This document shows, piece after piece, positions 14,644 to 22,848 of a stretch of 64,000 bases of DNA. Numbering within the stretch: the stretch's first letter is position 1; each line of letters starts with the position of its first letter. The stretch comes from Kribbella catacumbae DSM 19601 (GTDB lineage: Bacteria > Actinomycetota > Actinomycetes > Propionibacteriales > Kribbellaceae). The stretch lies in the NCBI RefSeq assembly GCF_000372465.1, contig NZ_AQUZ01000006.1, positions 1 through 64,000 on the forward strand. The letters run 5' to 3'. Under the pieces are notes generated by a model. That model was given only the letters and a program-made list of their open reading frames with translations, searched no databases and was not told the origin of the DNA. The position numbers and the translations under genes are program-made.

Positions 14644-14894
14644 CGGTCGTCTCCTTGGCTTGTCCGGCGCGGGCGGATCCGCGGTTTACCTCCAAACGAA
14701 GAGCGGCTCCCGATTTCGACAACGGGCCGGCGCCGAGGTTCTGGCCGGAGTACGCCGGGTGAGTGGTTGTGGTCGTCTTTGATCGAATGCTTTCGCAGTC
14801 TTGTTGCTGCCGCCCGCGGCGGATGACCTTGGTCTCTGCGCCTCTCGTCCGGAACGGAGGAGAGGACCTGGGCAACTCGGCAGTGGGAGGCAGC

Positions 14895-17639
14895 ATGCTT
14901 CACAACATCCGGTGGCGACGGGCGGCATCCGTGGCGCTGGTGGTCGCGTCCATCTGGGCCAGCGCGCCCTACGTCGCCGCGTCGGTGAGTGATTCCGATC
15001 AGGCGGGAAAGGCCCCCGGGCTGTCCTTCGGGGACGACACCACCGCTTGGAGTGACATCGTCGTCGACGGCGACGACGTGGAGCGAGACGACGACGGTAC
15101 GGCGTACAACGTCTTCGGTGGCTTCGGTTCGGTCTCCTGCAACAACACGTCGCGGCTGCTGCTCGACTACCGCGAGGAGAACCCGGCGGCGTACTGGCGG
15201 ATCCTCAATCTGCTGTTCAACCGGCGGACCGGTGCGGGTCTCAACCACATCAAGGTGGAGCTCGGCTCGGACACCGACACCTCGTCAGGCGCCGAACCCG
15301 CGACGAAGCGCAGCGCGGACGAGCCGGCGAACGTACTTCGTGGCGCGGGCTTCCGGCTGATCGCGGATGCGAAGAAGATCAACCCGCAGCTCAAGGTGGA
15401 GGCGCTGCGCTGGGGCGAGCCGTCGTGGACGGGCAACCGGCCGGCCGACCGGTACCGGTGGTACAAGGAGACGATCGACGCCGCGTACGACACGTACGGC
15501 GTCAAGTTCGACTACCTCAGCCCGTCGCAGAACGAGCTGAACATGAATCACCTCGGCTCCGAACTCGGCTGGGTGGTCGACTTCGGGAAACGACTCGAAG
15601 CGGATGCGCGGGCCGGCGACGCCCGCTACGACTACTCCAAGATCAAGGTCGTCGCGATGGACTCCTACCGCAACGGCGAGACGGTCGCCGCGGCCATCTT
15701 GAAGAGTCCCGAGGCGCTCGGTCAGATCGATGCCATCGGCATCCATTACACGATCGGGGGTGGACCGAATCTCACCCGGCTCAACAAGGAGTACGGCAAG
15801 GAGGTCCTGTACTCCGAGGGTGTCGCGCCGATGATCGACCCGGAGTACCGCATCAACGCCCAGCCCGAGCGGGGCGGGATCGGCGGAACCGTCGGTGCGG
15901 TCGACATCGCGGACCGGTTCATCAACGGCTACCGGTGGTCCGGCTCCGGTGACAACCCGGCGCACATGACCTCCTTCCTCTTTCAGCCGGCCGTTAGCGC
16001 CCTGTACGAGGGATCGTCGTACTCGCCTAAGCACCTGATCCGGGCCTCCGACCCGTGGTCCGGCTATTACGAGGGTGGCGTCGGGATCAACCTCGTGCGG
16101 CACTTCATGCAGTTCATCGACGAGGGGTGGGAGTACATCGAGGGCGCCAGTTATGGGGACGGGACGTTCGCCGACGGTGGTACCGCGGTCGACTCGAGCA
16201 CCCGGACGTACCTGACCCTGCGGGAGCCGGCCAAGCGGGCCAACGGTCCTGGCACCGACTTCACCCAGGTCCACGCCAACAACACCGGCAAGGCCAGGTA
16301 CTTCGAGGTCAAGGTGACCGATCTCGGTACCAAAGCTGCGACGCCGCTGCACCTGTGGCAGACCAAAGGACCGGACAACGCCGCCACGCAACCGGTCGAT
16401 GTGAACCACTTCCAGAACCTCGGGTACGTCACGCCGGTGCGCACGGAGACCGGCGACAACGGCAGCCGGTACTCCGTGTACCGCATCAAGGTCGAGCCGT
16501 ACTCGATCCTGACCATGTCGTCACTGGCCCGCGGAATCCACCGCTCGGCCAAGGAGTACGTCGCCGGCGAGTACGCGCCGAAGGCCGGGAACTCACCGCT
16601 TGGGCTCCCGTACTCCGACGACTTCGAGTACGCCGGCTACCTGACCGAGAACGTCAACGGCGTCGACCTGAGCTACCTGGAGCGGCGTGGCGGAACCCCG
16701 CGCTACACGGCCGACCAGAACGGCGCCTTCGAGGTGGTCGAATCCGGCGGCGGCAACGTCCTCCAGCAACGGATTCACGCGGACAACCGCGGCTATACCT
16801 GGAACGCCTGGGGCGACGGTTCCCAGAACCGTCTCTCGACAGCCACACCGGCGACGATTCTCGGCGACCACACATGGGCGAACTATCGCGCGTCGATCGA
16901 CGTACGCTTCGACGGGCGCGTCCGCAACCCTGCCCTTCCCAACTTCGCCGGGCTCGGGGTACGGCAAGTGGTCACCCAGGGATCGGATCTCGCGGCCTAC
17001 GCGCTGCGCCTATCCCCAGCGGGCGGCTGGCAACTGCGTAAGCTCGACACGGTCGTTGCTTCGGGCACCATTGCGGACTTCGACTCGGACGCCTGGCACC
17101 GCATCTCGCTGGAGGCAAAGGAAAATCAGCTCGTCCCGGCGGTCGATGGTTCCGAACTGACGACCTGGACCGACGCGGCACCGAACCCGGTGATGGCAGG
17201 TCGCATCGCGTTGACGTCCGGCTACTACCAGAACAGCTGGGACAACCTTTCCGTCGTACCGGTCGAGGGGCACGCCTGGCGTTCGGACAAGCTGGACGAC
17301 ACAGCATCCGGCCTCATGTACTCCGGTGCGGCGCAGTTCCAGCAGGTGGGCTTCGCGAACTACAACAGAACGCTGCATGTGCTCAGCCCGGGTGCGTCGT
17401 TGACGGTGCCGTTCCGCGGCACGGGGCTCAATATCTTCGGGGCAACTGCACGCGCCACGGTGGATGTGTCTGTCGACGGTGGCCCCGCCCAGCGGATCGC
17501 GGTCGGGCCGACCGGCATCCGCCAGACGTCGTACTGGCTCCGCGGACTGACAGCGAACAATTCGCACACGCTGAAAGTCACCGTCGTGACAGGAACATTC
17601 ACCACCGACGGCGTCGACGTCCTGGCCGGGCCGGGGTAA
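14895..17639 (+). CDS. Secreted GH59 galactocerebrosidase-like glycosidase
   Basis: 914 residues, starting at ATG 14895 after a GGGAGG ribosome site. The signal peptide covers about residues 1-34 (RRAASVALVVASIWASAPYVA). The catalytic part follows the GH59 pattern: FGGFGSVSCNNTSRLLLDY, LNHIKVELGSDTDTS, LKVEALRWGEPSW, the acid/base candidate Glu214 in SPSQNELN, the nucleophile candidate Glu308 in LYSEG, and DPWSGYYEGGVGINLVRHF. After about residue 570 comes a lectin/laminin-G-like part (LPYSDDFEYAGYLTENVNG) and then a C-terminal beta domain. The likely role is release of beta-galactosyl residues from an extracellular polymer or glycolipid. The family call is by pattern recall; substrate unverified. 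Confidence 0.8.
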   Translation: MLHNIRWRRAASVALVVASIWASAPYVAASVSDSDQAGKAPGLSFGDDTTAWSDIVVDGDDVERDDDGTAYNVFGGFGSVSCNNTSRLLLDYREENPAAYWRILNLLFNRRTGAGLNHIKVELGSDTDTSSGAEPATKRSADEPANVLRGAGFRLIADAKKINPQLKVEALRWGEPSWTGNRPADRYRWYKETIDAAYDTYGVKFDYLSPSQNELNMNHLGSELGWVVDFGKRLEADARAGDARYDYSKIKVVAMDSYRNGETVAAAILKSPEALGQIDAIGIHYTIGGGPNLTRLNKEYGKEVLYSEGVAPMIDPEYRINAQPERGGIGGTVGAVDIADRFINGYRWSGSGDNPAHMTSFLFQPAVSALYEGSSYSPKHLIRASDPWSGYYEGGVGINLVRHFMQFIDEGWEYIEGASYGDGTFADGGTAVDSSTRTYLTLREPAKRANGPGTDFTQVHANNTGKARYFEVKVTDLGTKAATPLHLWQTKGPDNAATQPVDVNHFQNLGYVTPVRTETGDNGSRYSVYRIKVEPYSILTMSSLARGIHRSAKEYVAGEYAPKAGNSPLGLPYSDDFEYAGYLTENVNGVDLSYLERRGGTPRYTADQNGAFEVVESGGGNVLQQRIHADNRGYTWNAWGDGSQNRLSTATPATILGDHTWANYRASIDVRFDGRVRNPALPNFAGLGVRQVVTQGSDLAAYALRLSPAGGWQLRKLDTVVASGTIADFDSDAWHRISLEAKENQLVPAVDGSELTTWTDAAPNPVMAGRIALTSGYYQNSWDNLSVVPVEGHAWRSDKLDDTASGLMYSGAAQFQQVGFANYNRTLHVLSPGASLTVPFRGTGLNIFGATARATVDVSVDGGPAQRIAVGPTGIRQTSYWLRGLTANNSHTLKVTVVTGTFTTDGVDVLAGPG

Positions 17640-17671
17640 CACCAGGCAGCCTGATCGGCCCCGGGAGAGGC

Positions 17672-17762
17672 CGGACCGCCAGCACTACTGAACCGGGTGC
17701 CGACACCCCGAAATACCCGATGGCAATCGATTGCCGCCGAGTTCAGTAGTGGTGGCGGTCCG
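17672..17762. terminator. Long-stem inverted repeat B between convergent genes
   Basis: Arms at 17672-17693 and 17741-17762 pair over 22 bp with one mismatch; the loop is 47 nt. It lies between the GH59 gene and the convergent cysteine-repeat gene, the position of a bidirectional terminator. The outer bases GGACCGCC are shared with inverted repeat A. Confidence 0.7.
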
Positions 17763-17852
17763 CCTTCGCATGAGCCCGCGGCCACCGGCACCCCGACCAC
17801 CCTGCTAAACGCCCGCTGCGATGCGTCCGAGCGAAAGCTGAAGACGCCGCCC

Positions 17853-18392
17853 TCAAGCTATCTGCGGAGCCGCTGCCCCGAGTCGACATGCGTCGCTGCC
17901 GCAGGGTCCCGCCGGAACCTTCGCCTCGCTGAACTGGGCGACAGGCAAGCACCCTCCTCCCGTGCACGGGTAAAACTCCGGCGCATCGACCAGAGACCCA
18001 TCGGCGACCATGCACCCATCACCACCGCAGGGGTCGGGTGGCACAGCGATCCAACCTGCCTGAGCCACAGCGAGGCATAGATCTGAACCGCACCCGCGGG
18101 ACTCCGGTTTCGCCGCCTCACCCGCGGACCGGCAGCCATCGCTGCCACAACCGCCAGGCGGGGCGGCCATAAACCGGAGCCCAACTACAGTCAGACACTC
18201 CCCCGAACCGCAGTTGTGCGCATCCATAGCCCTGGCTACCGGCTGACTCACGATCCGACATAGGTCACCGCCACACGGCTCAAGTGGCGCAGCCGAAGCG
18301 TGCGCAAGGTTCACCCCCACAGCCATGGCTACTCCCATCACGGTAACCATCAGGGAACGGCATACGGCGTGGAGCAGTGTCGAAGTCTTCAT
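17853..18392 (-). CDS. Secreted protein with seven CxxxxC motifs in a 21-residue repeat
   Basis: 179 residues. The ATG at 18392 has an AAGGAG ribosome site, and a signal peptide ends at HASA-APLEP (about residue 34). The mature part is seven motifs: CGGDLC (40-45), CGSGEC (61-66), CGSDGC (82-87), CGSDLC (101-106), CGGDGC (122-127), CTGGGC (143-148) and CGSDAC (164-169). The spacers are 15 residues, except one of 13. Most motifs follow the pattern C-G-S/G-D-x-C and the spacers often end in Pro or Gly. All 14 mature cysteines are in the motifs. I do not recognise the family. It could be a disulfide-rich extracellular, metal-binding or surface protein. The regularity, signal peptide and ribosome site argue strongly that it is a real gene. 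Confidence 0.85.
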   Translation of the reverse strand: MKTSTLLHAVCRSLMVTVMGVAMAVGVNLAHASAAPLEPCGGDLCRIVSQPVARAMDAHNCGSGECLTVVGLRFMAAPPGGCGSDGCRSAGEAAKPESRGCGSDLCLAVAQAGWIAVPPDPCGGDGCMVADGSLVDAPEFYPCTGGGCLPVAQFSEAKVPAGPCGSDACRLGAAAPQIA

Positions 18393-19030
18393 CGGATTCT
18401 CCTTGCTAGACGGCCTCGGTGCGCGCGAACCGCGCCTGCTCTCAGCTCATCGACCGGGCACTCGCCAAGCGTGAGGCAAGGCAATCTCACCGCCATTGCA
18501 AACATGTCTCACGGCAACGAGCACCGGCCAGTACGGCCCACTTTCACGCTATGGAGTCAGCCACAGGGCCGTCACCCACCGATGCTGTCCGCGAAGTCGC
18601 TGCCGAGCCCGGCGGCGATCGCCTACACCTTGGGCATGGCGAGCGACGTTCCTGTGTGGTGGCGACATCAGCTATCACACGCGTCGGTTCTTCCCACAGG
18701 GGATTCCATTGCCAAGCACGGCTGATGCGGGGGGTCAACCCCGCACTCGACGACCGCCGCCAACGACGTACCGGCTGAGCCCGCGCCCGGGTGGGCGGGA
18801 GCTAGGCGCCCAGGAACGAGGCAGGAGCGAGCGAGGCGCCGGGGTGGGGAGAATCAGAACGCGGGCTACTCGGCCCCAACGGCTCGCGCGGCCGTCAGTT
18901 GCCGACAAGACTCGATCTCATCGCTCAGATCGACTGCGTCAGGCGACGATAGCTGCGGCCGAGGGGTGCGGTCCCGCTGACAGCCACAAAGAGCTTTGCA
19001 AGAACCCGACCTAGCATCTACCTTTGAGGT
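18393..19030. other. 638-bp non-coding stretch before the toxin-antitoxin pair
   Basis: No convincing gene on either strand. It holds one copy of a GC-rich repeat at 18790-18866. TTTGAGGT just before 19031 is the ribosome site of the antitoxin gene. Confidence 0.5.
18790..18866. repeat. GC-rich direct repeat, copy 1
   Basis: It begins with GGTGGGCGGGAGCTAGGCGCC, contains GCAGGAGCGAGCGAGGCGCC, and ends AGAACGCGGGC. A second copy in the same orientation lies at 20133-20212; the toxin-antitoxin module lies between them. Confidence 0.75.
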
Positions 19031-19516
19031 ATGGCCGAGATGCAGGAAGTGACGTTCACCGATCTGTTGCAGCGCCCGACCGAGACCGTCGAGAAGCTGA
19101 AGTCGAGCCGGCGACGGGCCCTGCGTGTGCACCGCCGCGGCACTGAGGACGATCTCGTCCTGACGACCGCTTCCCGGTCGGCCCAGGACGACCAACTGGT
19201 GGAGGTCGCGACCCGCCTCCTGCGGGCGATCATGAGCGATCCCGTCGTGCGATCAAGTCATCTCTTGGATCTTCTACCTCAGGTGTTCCCGTGGCTCCGG
19301 TTCCTCCCGGCCGGCGACCGGATCGAATTCGTTCGGGAACTGATCGCGGTGTGGGACGCCAGTCACGACGTCGACTCTCCGGCTCCTGTCCTTCAGCTGA
19401 TCACCGAGTGGCGGAACACCGCACAGGTGTACGCCGACCCTGAACTGCTGAAGGTTCTGCGGTCGGAGGTCATCGAGGACGCCGGACCGGTCTCCGCCCC
19501 CGACGCGACCTCGTGA
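19031..19516 (+). CDS. Antitoxin with Phd/YefM-like N-terminus and extended C-terminal domain
   Basis: 161 residues, longer than the usual 80-90 of Phd antitoxins. The N-terminus VTFTDLLQRPTETVEKLKSS is followed by ALRVHRRGTEDDLVLTTASR and matches the strand-helix pattern of prevent-host-death antitoxins. The C-terminal half (SHLLDLLPQVFPWLRFLPAGD and onward) is helical and of unknown function. The start has a TTTGAGGT ribosome site. Its stop overlaps the start of the RelE-like gene by 4 bp. It should bind and neutralise that toxin and repress the shared promoter. Confidence 0.78.
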   Translation: MAEMQEVTFTDLLQRPTETVEKLKSSRRRALRVHRRGTEDDLVLTTASRSAQDDQLVEVATRLLRAIMSDPVVRSSHLLDLLPQVFPWLRFLPAGDRIEFVRELIAVWDASHDVDSPAPVLQLITEWRNTAQVYADPELLKVLRSEVIEDAGPVSAPDATS

Positions 19517-19857
19517 GCCCCGGCAAGAAGAACGATCGGGTCGCGCCGCCGGCAGAACCCGGTTGTTGGCTCCTGAAGTTCGGAACCACCGAGGCCGCCA
19601 AGGGCTGGGAAGACTTGGCCCGGCAGGCTGGCGCCAACCTCTGGACGGCGTACGAGACGATCCGGACCGATCCGACACCGTTTCCGACTACCACCCGGCA
19701 CCATCGACTGAAGGGCAGCCTCGGCACGATCTGCGGGCTCGAGCAGTGGCAGTACGAGGTGACCGCCGGCGGGCGAATCTGGTACGTGGTCGATCCCGAC
19801 AGCAAGACGGTGTGGATCAGGTGGGCAGGAACAGGACATCCGAAGGCCACGGATTAG
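19513..19857 (+). CDS. RelE/ParE-superfamily toxin-like protein
   Basis: 114 residues, starting with GTG in a GTGA overlap with the antitoxin gene. The core AAKGWEDLARQAGANLWTAYE, RHHRLKGSLGTICGLEQWQY and RIWYVVDPDSKTVWIRWAG matches the RelE fold, with a substrate loop after LKG and C-terminal strands. The predicted role is a ribosome-dependent mRNase or a gyrase poison balanced by the upstream antitoxin. The family's active-site residues are poorly conserved, so the exact activity is uncertain. Confidence 0.78.
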   Translation: MSPGKKNDRVAPPAEPGCWLLKFGTTEAAKGWEDLARQAGANLWTAYETIRTDPTPFPTTTRHHRLKGSLGTICGLEQWQYEVTAGGRIWYVVDPDSKTVWIRWAGTGHPKATD

Positions 19858-20008: not shown

Positions 20009-20132
20009 ACCACATCAACTCACTCAAGCGGGCGATGCAGGAGCGAGCATGGCGCCAGCGCGGGACACCCAGCGACGGCGCACCACTCAACTCGCCTTCA
20101 CCAAGCGGGCGACGGAGGAGCCCGCGATCCGG

Positions 20133-20212
20133 GGTGGGCGGGAGCTAGGCGCCGAGAGAGCGACGCAGGAGCGTGCGAGGCGCCGGCGTGGGGAGAACGA
20201 CAGAACGCGGGC
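20133..20212. repeat. GC-rich direct repeat, copy 2
   Basis: Same order of blocks as 18790-18866 (GGTGGGCGGGAGCTAGGCGCC, GCAGGAGCG, GCGAGGCGCCGG, GTGGGGAGAA, AGAACGCGGGC), with small differences in the middle. Its last bases form the outer part of the glgP terminator stem. Confidence 0.75.
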
Positions 20213-20250: not shown

Positions 20251-22848
20251 TCAGAATTCGGAGCCTGCTGGGAGGTCCGGGGTTTCCGGGTCCTCAGGAT
20301 CCGACGGCCCAGCCGCCAGGCCGAGTTCCGCGTTGCTCGCGAGCATCGGGTGCTTCGGCAGGACGCGGACCGTGTAGCCGAAAGGCCCGGTTCGATCCAG
20401 CTTCAGTTCGCCCTCAAAGCGGTGGCGGTTGCCTTCGTACGTCTCGGCCAGCGACAGCGACACCCGCACCGGGTCGGTGATCTCGTCCTCCGAGTTCACC
20501 CGCCCGTGCAGCGCCTCGACGTCGATGTCCGATGGCGTCAGATCGCCCAGCGTCACGAACGCCCGGATGCCGACCGTAGTACCAAGCTGCGGCACATCCC
20601 CCAGCCCCTGCAACTCCACGTGGTCGACGCGGATCTGCGACCAAGCGGCCCGCACCTGCTTCTTCCAGGTGGCGAGCTGGCGGGCACCCTCGTACGTCGA
20701 GTTGAGCTTCCGCGACGAGTGCGCCGCCGGGACATAGAGCTGCTCGACATAGTCCCGAACCATCCGGGTGGCGAGCACCTTCGGGCCGAGTTCCTTGATC
20801 GTGTGCCGGAGCATCTCGATCCAGCGGCCGGGGACCTCGCCGTCGTAGAAGCGCGGCGCGACCTGCTTCTCGATCAGGTCATACAAAGCGTGCGCCTCGA
20901 GGTCATCACGACGATCCGTGTCCTCGATACCTTCAGCAGACGGGATCGCCCAGCCGAACTCGTCGTCGTACCACTCGTCCCACCAGCCGTCGCGGATGGA
21001 CAAGTTCAGAGCACCGTTCAGTGCCGCCTTCATGCCCGAGGTACCGCACGCCTCGTAGGGCCGCAGCGGGTTGTTCAGCCAGACGTCGCAGCCCGGGTAC
21101 ATCGGCTGCGCGAGCGCGATGTCGTAGTCGGGCACGAAGACGATCCGGTGCCGGACCTCTGGGTCGTCGGCGAAGCGGACCATTTCCTGGATCAGCTTCT
21201 TGCCGCCCTCGTCGGCCGGGTGCGCCTTGCCCGCGATCACGATCTGGATCGGCCGGGTCGGGTGCAGCAGCATCGCCTTCAGCCGGGCGGGGTCGCGCAG
21301 CATCAGCGTCAGCCGCTTGTACGACGGTACGCGGCGGGCGAAGCCCATCGTCAGGACGTCGGGGTCGAGGATCGAGTCGACCCAGCCGAGCTCGGCCTCG
21401 CTGGCGCCGCGGTTCACCCAGGAGGCGCGGACGCGGGCGCGGGTGTCGTCGATGAAGCGCTGCCGCAGCATCCGCTTCGTCTCCCACAGCTGAGCGTCGG
21501 TGGTCTTGTCCAGACCCTCGAACATCTCCTCGGAATCACCCTGGTCGGCGGCCGCGTAGGTCAGGCCGGAGATCTCCCGGGCCACCCAGGTCGGCGCGTG
21601 TACGCCGTTGGTGATCGAGGTGATCGGTACGTCGGCCGGGTCGAAGCTCGGCCACAGGCCGGCGAACATGCCCCGGCTGACGACACCGTGCAGCTTGGAG
21701 ACGCCGTTGGCGCGCTGGGCCAGTCGCAGACCCATGATCGCCATGTTGAAGACGCCCGGGTCGCCGCCTTCGAAGTCCTCGGCGCCGAGCGCGAGGATCC
21801 GGTCGATCGGTACGCCGTCGCCGAACGCGTCCGGCGAGAAGTGCTGCTGGATCAGCTCGACCGGGAAGCGGTCGATACCGGCCGGGACCGGCGTGTGGGT
21901 GGTGAAGACGGTGCCGCCGCGGGCCACCTCGAGCGCGGTGTCGAAGTCGAGGCCCTGGTCGGCGGCGAGCTCGCGGATCCGCTCGATGCCGAGGAAACCG
22001 GCGTGGCCTTCGTTGGTGTGGAACACCTCAGGGGCCGCATGCCCGGTGATCCGGCAGTACTCGCGCACCGCGCGGACACCGCCGACACCCAGCAGGAGCT
22101 CCTGCAGCAGCCGGTGCTCGGTCGTACCGCCGTACAGGCGGTCGGTGACCTCGCGCTCGGCGGCCTCGTTGTCCTCCATGTCGGAGTCGAGCATCAGCAG
22201 CGGCACCCGGCCGACCTGGGCGACCCAGATCTGCGCGCACAGCTTGCGGCCGCCGGGCAGCGTCACGTTGATGGTGGCCGGAGCGTCGCCGTCGCGGAGC
22301 AGGCTGATCGGCAGCCCGTCCGGGTCGACGAGCGGGTACCGCTCTTGCTGCCAGCCCTCGCGGTTCAGCGACTGACCGAAGTAGCCGTGCCGGTAGAGCA
22401 GGCCGACACCGATCAGCGGGACACCGAGGTCGCTCGCGGCCTTCAGGTGGTCACCCGCCAGGATGCCGAGCCCACCGGAGTACTGCGGCAGCACGTGGGT
22501 GATGCCGTACTCCGGGGAGAAGTAGGCCACCGAGTTGACCGGCGTACCGGCTTCGGCCTGGAACCAGCGGTCGTCGGTCACGTAGCCGGTCAGGTCGGCT
22601 ACGGCCAGTTCGAGCCGGCGCAGGAAGGCTTGGTCGTTGGCCAGCTCGTCGAGCCGGGCCGCCGGGACCTCACCGAGGAGCCGGACCGGGTCACCACCGG
22701 TACTGCGCCACAACTGCGGGTCGACAGCCTCGAAAACGTCTTGCGTCTCGGGGTGCCAGGCCCAGCGCAAGTTGTTCACCAGGGTGCCGAGACCGGTCAG
22801 CGGCTCGGGCAGGACAGGGCGGACGGAGAATCGTCGTATCGCTCGCAC
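20251..22848 (-). CDS. glgP: Alpha-glucan phosphorylase GlgP
   Basis: 865 residues. PLP enzyme that releases glucose-1-phosphate from the non-reducing ends of alpha-1,4-glucan. It belongs to the shorter actinobacterial/archaeal type with an N-terminal DUF3417 region (LPEPLTGLGTLVNNLRWAWH). Marker blocks are YFSPEYGITHVLPQYSGGLG, FHTNEGHAGFLGIERIREL, and the PLP-lysine region ACGTSGMKAALNGALNLSI followed by RDGWWDEWYDDEFGWAI. It starts with GTG. It is divergent from glgE across 292 bp, the usual gene neighbour in actinobacteria. It ends at a strong hairpin. Confidence 0.95.
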   Translation of the reverse strand: MRAIRRFSVRPVLPEPLTGLGTLVNNLRWAWHPETQDVFEAVDPQLWRSTGGDPVRLLGEVPAARLDELANDQAFLRRLELAVADLTGYVTDDRWFQAEAGTPVNSVAYFSPEYGITHVLPQYSGGLGILAGDHLKAASDLGVPLIGVGLLYRHGYFGQSLNREGWQQERYPLVDPDGLPISLLRDGDAPATINVTLPGGRKLCAQIWVAQVGRVPLLMLDSDMEDNEAAEREVTDRLYGGTTEHRLLQELLLGVGGVRAVREYCRITGHAAPEVFHTNEGHAGFLGIERIRELAADQGLDFDTALEVARGGTVFTTHTPVPAGIDRFPVELIQQHFSPDAFGDGVPIDRILALGAEDFEGGDPGVFNMAIMGLRLAQRANGVSKLHGVVSRGMFAGLWPSFDPADVPITSITNGVHAPTWVAREISGLTYAAADQGDSEEMFEGLDKTTDAQLWETKRMLRQRFIDDTRARVRASWVNRGASEAELGWVDSILDPDVLTMGFARRVPSYKRLTLMLRDPARLKAMLLHPTRPIQIVIAGKAHPADEGGKKLIQEMVRFADDPEVRHRIVFVPDYDIALAQPMYPGCDVWLNNPLRPYEACGTSGMKAALNGALNLSIRDGWWDEWYDDEFGWAIPSAEGIEDTDRRDDLEAHALYDLIEKQVAPRFYDGEVPGRWIEMLRHTIKELGPKVLATRMVRDYVEQLYVPAAHSSRKLNSTYEGARQLATWKKQVRAAWSQIRVDHVELQGLGDVPQLGTTVGIRAFVTLGDLTPSDIDVEALHGRVNSEDEITDPVRVSLSLAETYEGNRHRFEGELKLDRTGPFGYTVRVLPKHPMLASNAELGLAAGPSDPEDPETPDLPAGSEF

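Follow-up and report, generated by a model that had tools for sequence, protein, structure and literature searches.

A predicted secreted Kribbella protein with seven spaced CX4C loops, one look-alike and a possible chain of disulfide rings

Single-chain tandem macrocyclic peptides (STaMPtides) are designed receptor binders secreted by Corynebacterium glutamicum which, in the account given in PMC8760323, acquire the designed disulfides with no additional processing; where pairing was mapped, in two molecules with Pro-Ala linkers, that account describes solely the intended rings. In class IIa (pediocin-like) bacteriocins, as outlined in PMC3546714, a conserved disulfide follows the YGNGV box and mostly joins Cys 9 to Cys 14, which is a CX4C spacing. 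Here we describe a gene in a 64,000-nucleotide stretch of DNA from Kribbella catacumbae DSM 19601 (the window) whose 179-residue product, P0001, carries seven CX4C loops on one chain. Two other kinds of protein serve as further comparisons: metallothionein-like metal binders, which carry CXC or CXXC clusters, and CX4CH-type cytochromes c, which have a His after the second Cys.

An earlier note on this DNA had drawn attention to the gene, and its position, strand and length proved correct on re-reading the sequence (Table 1). The note had taken a signal peptide and a ribosome site as support for expression; the protein does begin in a signal-like manner, with a basic start followed by a long hydrophobic stretch and AHASAAP (predicted cleavage near ASA/AP, judged by eye), and AAGGAG stands upstream of the ATG. 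If residues 36-179 are counted as the mature part, all 14 of its cysteines fall within seven CX4C motifs, as had been counted before, and the fifteenth cysteine (C11) lies in the signal peptide. The exact chance of obtaining seven separate CX4C pairs from 14 cysteines placed at random in 144 residues is 3.0e-9. The six linkers also measure as first described, five of 15 residues and one of 13, and the proposed 21-residue period therefore holds except for one step of 19. The consensus needs loosening: all seven motifs are CX4C loops, but the strict form CG[SG]DxC fits five of the seven, with CGSGEC and CTGGGC deviating. Identity among the loops is 0.75, 0.66 and 0.31 at codon positions 1, 2 and 3, respectively; the loops thus agree at the first two positions and not at the third, which argues that the pattern has been kept as protein and not as copied DNA. 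We read the 21-residue unit as a probable worn tandem repeat of which the loop is the best-kept part.

Table 1. Features of the loop gene and its surroundings, in positions of the window
Feature	Position	Strand	Basis
Coding sequence of the 179-aa CX4C-loop protein (P0001)	17853..18392	minus	open frame, ATG, AAGGAG upstream
Shine-Dalgarno-like AAGGAG, 6 nt before the ATG of the loop gene	18399..18404	minus	sequence
Predicted Sec-type signal peptide, residues 1-35 of P0001	18288..18392	minus	sequence
Loop 1, CGGDLC, residues 40-45	18258..18275	minus	sequence
Loop 2, CGSGEC, residues 61-66	18195..18212	minus	sequence
Loop 3, CGSDGC, residues 82-87	18132..18149	minus	sequence
Loop 4, CGSDLC, residues 101-106	18075..18092	minus	sequence
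Loop 5, CGGDGC, residues 122-127	18012..18029	minus	sequence
Loop 6, CTGGGC, residues 143-148	17949..17966	minus	sequence
Loop 7, CGSDAC, residues 164-169	17886..17903	minus	sequence
GH59 (galactocerebrosidase-type) gene	14763-17639		Pfam Glyco_hydro_59
Stretch of 4353 bp with the GH59 and loop genes; 105 bp in its place in relative G024	14656..19008		blastn vs L212, sequences

Of the readings considered, the best supported, whose odds we regard as evenly balanced, is that P0001 is a predicted-exported protein whose cysteines likely oxidise to give seven small disulfide rings in a chain, with a Gly-(Gly/Ser)-Asp turn probably displayed many times over. To judge from its signal-like start, the protein would be exported via Sec. 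A ring would then close inside each CX4C loop, because the cysteines are closely spaced and even in number and because the genome holds two matches to VKOR-type oxidases above the family cut-off. The pairing described for the STaMPtides favours such closure. Set on Pro/Ala-rich linkers, the seven rings would present Gly-rich turns, with an Asp in the turn of five of the seven, and this repetition may give multivalent weak binding to an extracellular partner (a cation, a glycan or the surface of a neighbour, for example). The suggestion made earlier of a new disulfide-rich repeat protein stands in so far as the loops are kept at the protein level, the N-terminus is signal-like and no library family covers the sequence; the disulfides themselves are predicted. 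If the rings close as expected, the gene would amount to a genetically encoded, enzyme-free display of many small cyclic peptides on one secreted chain, a many-ring format that, to our knowledge, is familiar solely as a designed one. If this is true, it would provide a scaffold for engineering as well as a novel kind of extracellular protein in bacteria, with a target to seek.

Like the STaMPtides as they are described, P0001 has at least two Cys pairs (seven) separated by linkers (13-15 residues) on one chain, and Pro-Ala linkers, present in several of the designed molecules, find a parallel in the 33% Pro+Ala of the P0001 linkers (35% in the look-alike P0002, described below). Unlike those man-made chains, P0001 is natural, all seven of its loops have six residues, and its ring closure is predicted. 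With the class IIa bacteriocins it shares the CX4C spacing, present seven times in P0001 against one loop there; it differs from them, so far as their published outline goes, in that YGNGV is absent and no Pfam or NCBIfam profile matches up to E 1. At the same threshold no family in PHROGs or PADLOC matched either, in line with the earlier note's remark that the family was unfamiliar. The CXC and CXXC clusters of metallothionein-like binders are absent from the Cys positions of P0001, and the His of CX4CH-type cytochromes c follows the second Cys of no loop in P0001 or P0002, where L, A, R, M, V and I stand instead.

Searched against about 5.8 billion proteins, P0001 returned a single match, P0002, with an E value of 0.1 among 399 candidates; P0002 in turn found nothing beyond itself among 4547 candidates in the protein collection, where the alignment search covered the best 7996 candidates by shared words. 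P0002 has 241 residues, comes from a source coded 'lgn' and occurs as one sequence on three contigs, the longest of 4913 bases. It resembles P0001 in its signal-like start and its CG[GS]xxC-type CX4C loops, ten in number and holding 20 of its 21 cysteines, and differs in its linkers of 9-16 residues and in the lone Cys near its end. The loops CGGDLC and CGSDGC are common to both proteins. Across the 17 loops of the pair, position 2 is Gly in 16, position 3 is Gly or Ser in all 17 and position 4 is Asp in nine; the constancy of the six-residue loops beside variable linkers suggests that the length of the loop is maintained as the linkers drift. The mature parts align with a score of 153, as against a mean of 58 and a maximum of 103 over 500 shuffles of P0001. 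When the loops were kept and the linkers alone shuffled, the mean score was 138 and 72 of 500 shuffles reached the observed value, so the likeness resides in the loops alone. The signal regions are no closer than chance (275 of 500 shuffles score as high). Common descent of the two proteins is possible.

The linkers of P0001 bear on a different and, in our view, unlikely interpretation, namely an ordered fold with a 21-residue repeat, of beta-hairpin or solenoid character, whose turns the CX4C loops would clamp within a rigid surface or matrix protein. The five 15-residue linkers, to which the similarity test was confined, with the 13-residue linker left out, are mutually alike (30 identities against a shuffled mean of 13.7, p 1e-4; p about 9e-4 under a circular-shift control) and share a pattern of a hydrophobic residue (mostly Val) at position 3, Gln or Gly at position 5 and Pro near the end. 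The charge-hydropathy measure places both P0001 and P0002 on the folded side of the boundary. These results favour an ordered fold and, within the proposal of a chain of rings, speak against wholly free linkers; the single 13-residue linker and the uneven linkers of P0002, by contrast, sit poorly with a regular repeat. Structure prediction, which had been suggested as a check, gave mean AlphaFold pLDDT values of 37.7 for P0001 and 38.8 for P0002, too low for a fold to be used, and in P0001 the value exceeds 50 solely before residue 32, as helix. Neither model contains strands, which counts against a hairpin or solenoid, although the underlying alignments, with two sequences and one, are too sparse to settle the matter. 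Comparison with solved structures yielded nothing credible (best E 0.12 and 1.3), and the suggestion of a surface polymer gained no support.

It seems to us quite improbable that P0001 is a multi-core precursor whose linkers are cut by proteases, freeing six-residue disulfide rings as signals or antimicrobials. The cores between the linkers are indeed repeated and slightly varied, with loop position 5 reading L, E, G, L, G, G, A, but inspection of the linkers by eye revealed no common cleavage site. The genes around P0001 also argue against such processing. The loop gene sits between the convergent GH59 glycosidase gene and a pair of overlapping genes at 19031-19857 that resembles a toxin-antitoxin pair. 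Pfam scans of four neighbours, namely the GH59 gene, a RibD_C-type gene and the two genes of the pair, found no modification enzyme or protease, and a phosphorylase-like gene farther along does not supply one. This bears out the earlier statement that no modification enzyme is adjacent, leaves the accompanying suggestion of a modified-peptide precursor without support, and sets P0001 apart from RiPP precursors with a clustered maturase, although enzymes encoded outside the cluster may exist. The gene pair itself has weak DUF6247 and DUF7257 matches below the cut-off and DNA matches in more than 10 genomes of the genus.

Codon composition raises the question of whether the frame is a working gene at all. 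The codon use of the loop gene is atypical: its GC content is flat over codon positions 1, 2 and 3 (0.69, 0.61 and 0.65), and the 28 window ORFs of at least 250 aa, a set retained solely if GC3 was at least 0.75, range from 0.75 to 0.93. Five ORFs overlapping or adjoining the loop gene have GC3 values of 0.72, 0.72, 0.67 and 0.66, which are slightly higher than that of the loop gene, and 0.62, which is lower; no frame at the locus reaches 0.75, so codon bias backs coding in none of the frames compared. Neither a sigma-70-like promoter nor a terminator-like site was found in 17500-19100, and P0001, used as the query against the protein collection, did not return itself and may be missing there. 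The surrounding DNA is also variable. In the relative G024 (locus L212), 105 bp separate the RibD_C-type gene from the gene pair, against 4.35 kb in the window, and from this comparison the 4353-bp stretch appears to have been either gained in the window genome or lost in G024.

These observations would suit a frame that is open by chance or in decay within strain-specific DNA, with no working gene, an explanation that we nonetheless find very doubtful: the Cys layout is far from random, the loops are kept at the protein level, an independent look-alike has the same loops, and a ribosome site precedes the ATG. Against 38 genomes of the genus, that of the window among them, the end of the GH59 gene and the gene pair found DNA matches; 17640-19004, by contrast, found none at E<=1e-10 among the best 7 candidates per genome, except dispersed repeats within the genome of the window (G000). 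No orthologue of P0001 was found in the 37 other genomes of the genus. In four fetched relatives whose GH59 match covers most of the gene length (L213, L214, L215 and L217; 7.5-8 kb each), tblastn detected no loop gene near GH59, which suggests that the loop gene is no standing partner of GH59. The GH59 gene occurs in other surroundings in these four relatives. An extracellular reduced-thiol metal binder or scavenger, a role also floated in the earlier note, is scarcely credible, since the 14 cysteines and several Asp that would suit it come in an even number without CXC or CXXC clusters and would meet an exterior expected to be oxidising, with VKOR-type genes present.

The chain of rings proposed for P0001 has a broader form, which we hold tentatively and think somewhat doubtful: a natural bacterial class of secreted tandem disulfide-macrocycle proteins whose six-residue CG[GS]Dx-C rings, borne on Pro/Ala-rich linkers, would close by themselves, enzyme-free, and which would act as extracellular multivalent ligands, a counterpart of the designed tandem macrocyclic peptides. 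Searches for further members covered several overlapping sets of genomes. With P0001, some match at E<=1 was obtained in 50 of the 97 relatives' genomes (own included), the best outside its own genome having an E value of 0.003, and several matches contained internal stops. With P0002, the window gene was the best match in 396 phylum genomes (E 2.3e-4), followed by seven others at 9.3e-4 to 0.01. We also built a profile from P0001 and P0002 (A1) and another from the 17 loop units of both proteins (A2); matches of either to the window gene are expected by construction. A1 recovered the window gene plus two others, at 2.9e-4 and 6.4e-4, in 391 order genomes, and the window gene alone at E<=5e-4 in 394 class genomes. 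Because scoring in the phylum, order and class searches with P0002 and A1 was confined to the best 7 candidates per genome, weak members could be missed there; in the genus searches with P0001 and A2, every first-look candidate was scored. A2 matched at E<=0.01 in 44 of the 396 phylum genomes and in 4 of the 38 from the genus, and more than one match in a single open frame occurred in G000 alone. A second spaced-loop array appeared in none of the overlapping sets of 97, 396, 391, 394, 396 and 38 genomes.

A filter for spaced-loop arrays, run over 253 loci that included those from the P0001, P0002, A1 and A2 searches, returned 12 loci that hold the window gene itself plus 14 other rows. Seven of the latter (L163, L161, L128, L112, L067, L057 and L078, with 3-4 units each, from a motif scan of public contigs) have a third-position identity of 0.67-1.0 and a longer frame open over the array, and thus look like DNA repeats; the 0.31 of the P0001 loops stands against these values, in favour of a chain of rings. 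The array of L021, with copied units and a third-position identity of 0.67, is of the same sort. L153, L175, L141, L088, L176 and L165 are Cys arrays with a five-residue period and extra cysteines between the loops; low third-position identities in L153 (0.39), L141 (0.45) and L088 (0.53) suggest that these are more than mere DNA copies. Arrays of this kind from the motif scan (for example L086, L129, L141, L145, L152 and L153) resemble P0001 in their CG[GS]DxC-like letters but, unlike P0001 and P0002, have a Cys about every five residues and no Cys-free linkers of 9-16 residues. L086, L152, L153 and L145 are proteins with such arrays, and in L086 and L152 the array is preceded by a leader-like segment that has a Gly-rich joint, which makes these two possible modified-peptide precursors.

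The motif scan found at least 119 stretches in genome_contigs and 28 in viral_contigs; a stricter three-loop motif failed to match even the window itself, and an early pattern search in the genus returned mostly low-complexity DNA. P0001 had no confirmed match in genome_contigs, four records in phages (E 3-7) and one in plasmids (E 8), while P0002 had no match in plasmids and none confirmed in viral contigs. Among the open-licence papers listed by our literature searches, we met no description of such a CX4C-loop protein. By its sequence, P0001 shows a strain-specific protein pattern that is unusual and has one look-alike, and its interest lies in so clear a pattern falling outside the family libraries searched.

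The same part of the window carries repeated DNA of other kinds. A 93-nt palindromic element at 17672-17764, between the GH59 and loop genes, has a folding energy of -56.8 kcal/mol (z -7.3) and at least 24 near-full copies in the genome, itself included (40 of 132 candidates scored). Another repeat, dispersed and about 100 bp long, lies at 20090-20198, with a weaker copy near 18777-18866 and many copies of 77-88% identity in several genus genomes. In keeping with an actinobacterial source, for the phosphorylase-like protein encoded at 20251-22848 the four best matches in the plasmid collection are all actinobacterial, from Nonomuraea (61.7%), Arthrobacter (two) and Tsukamurella.
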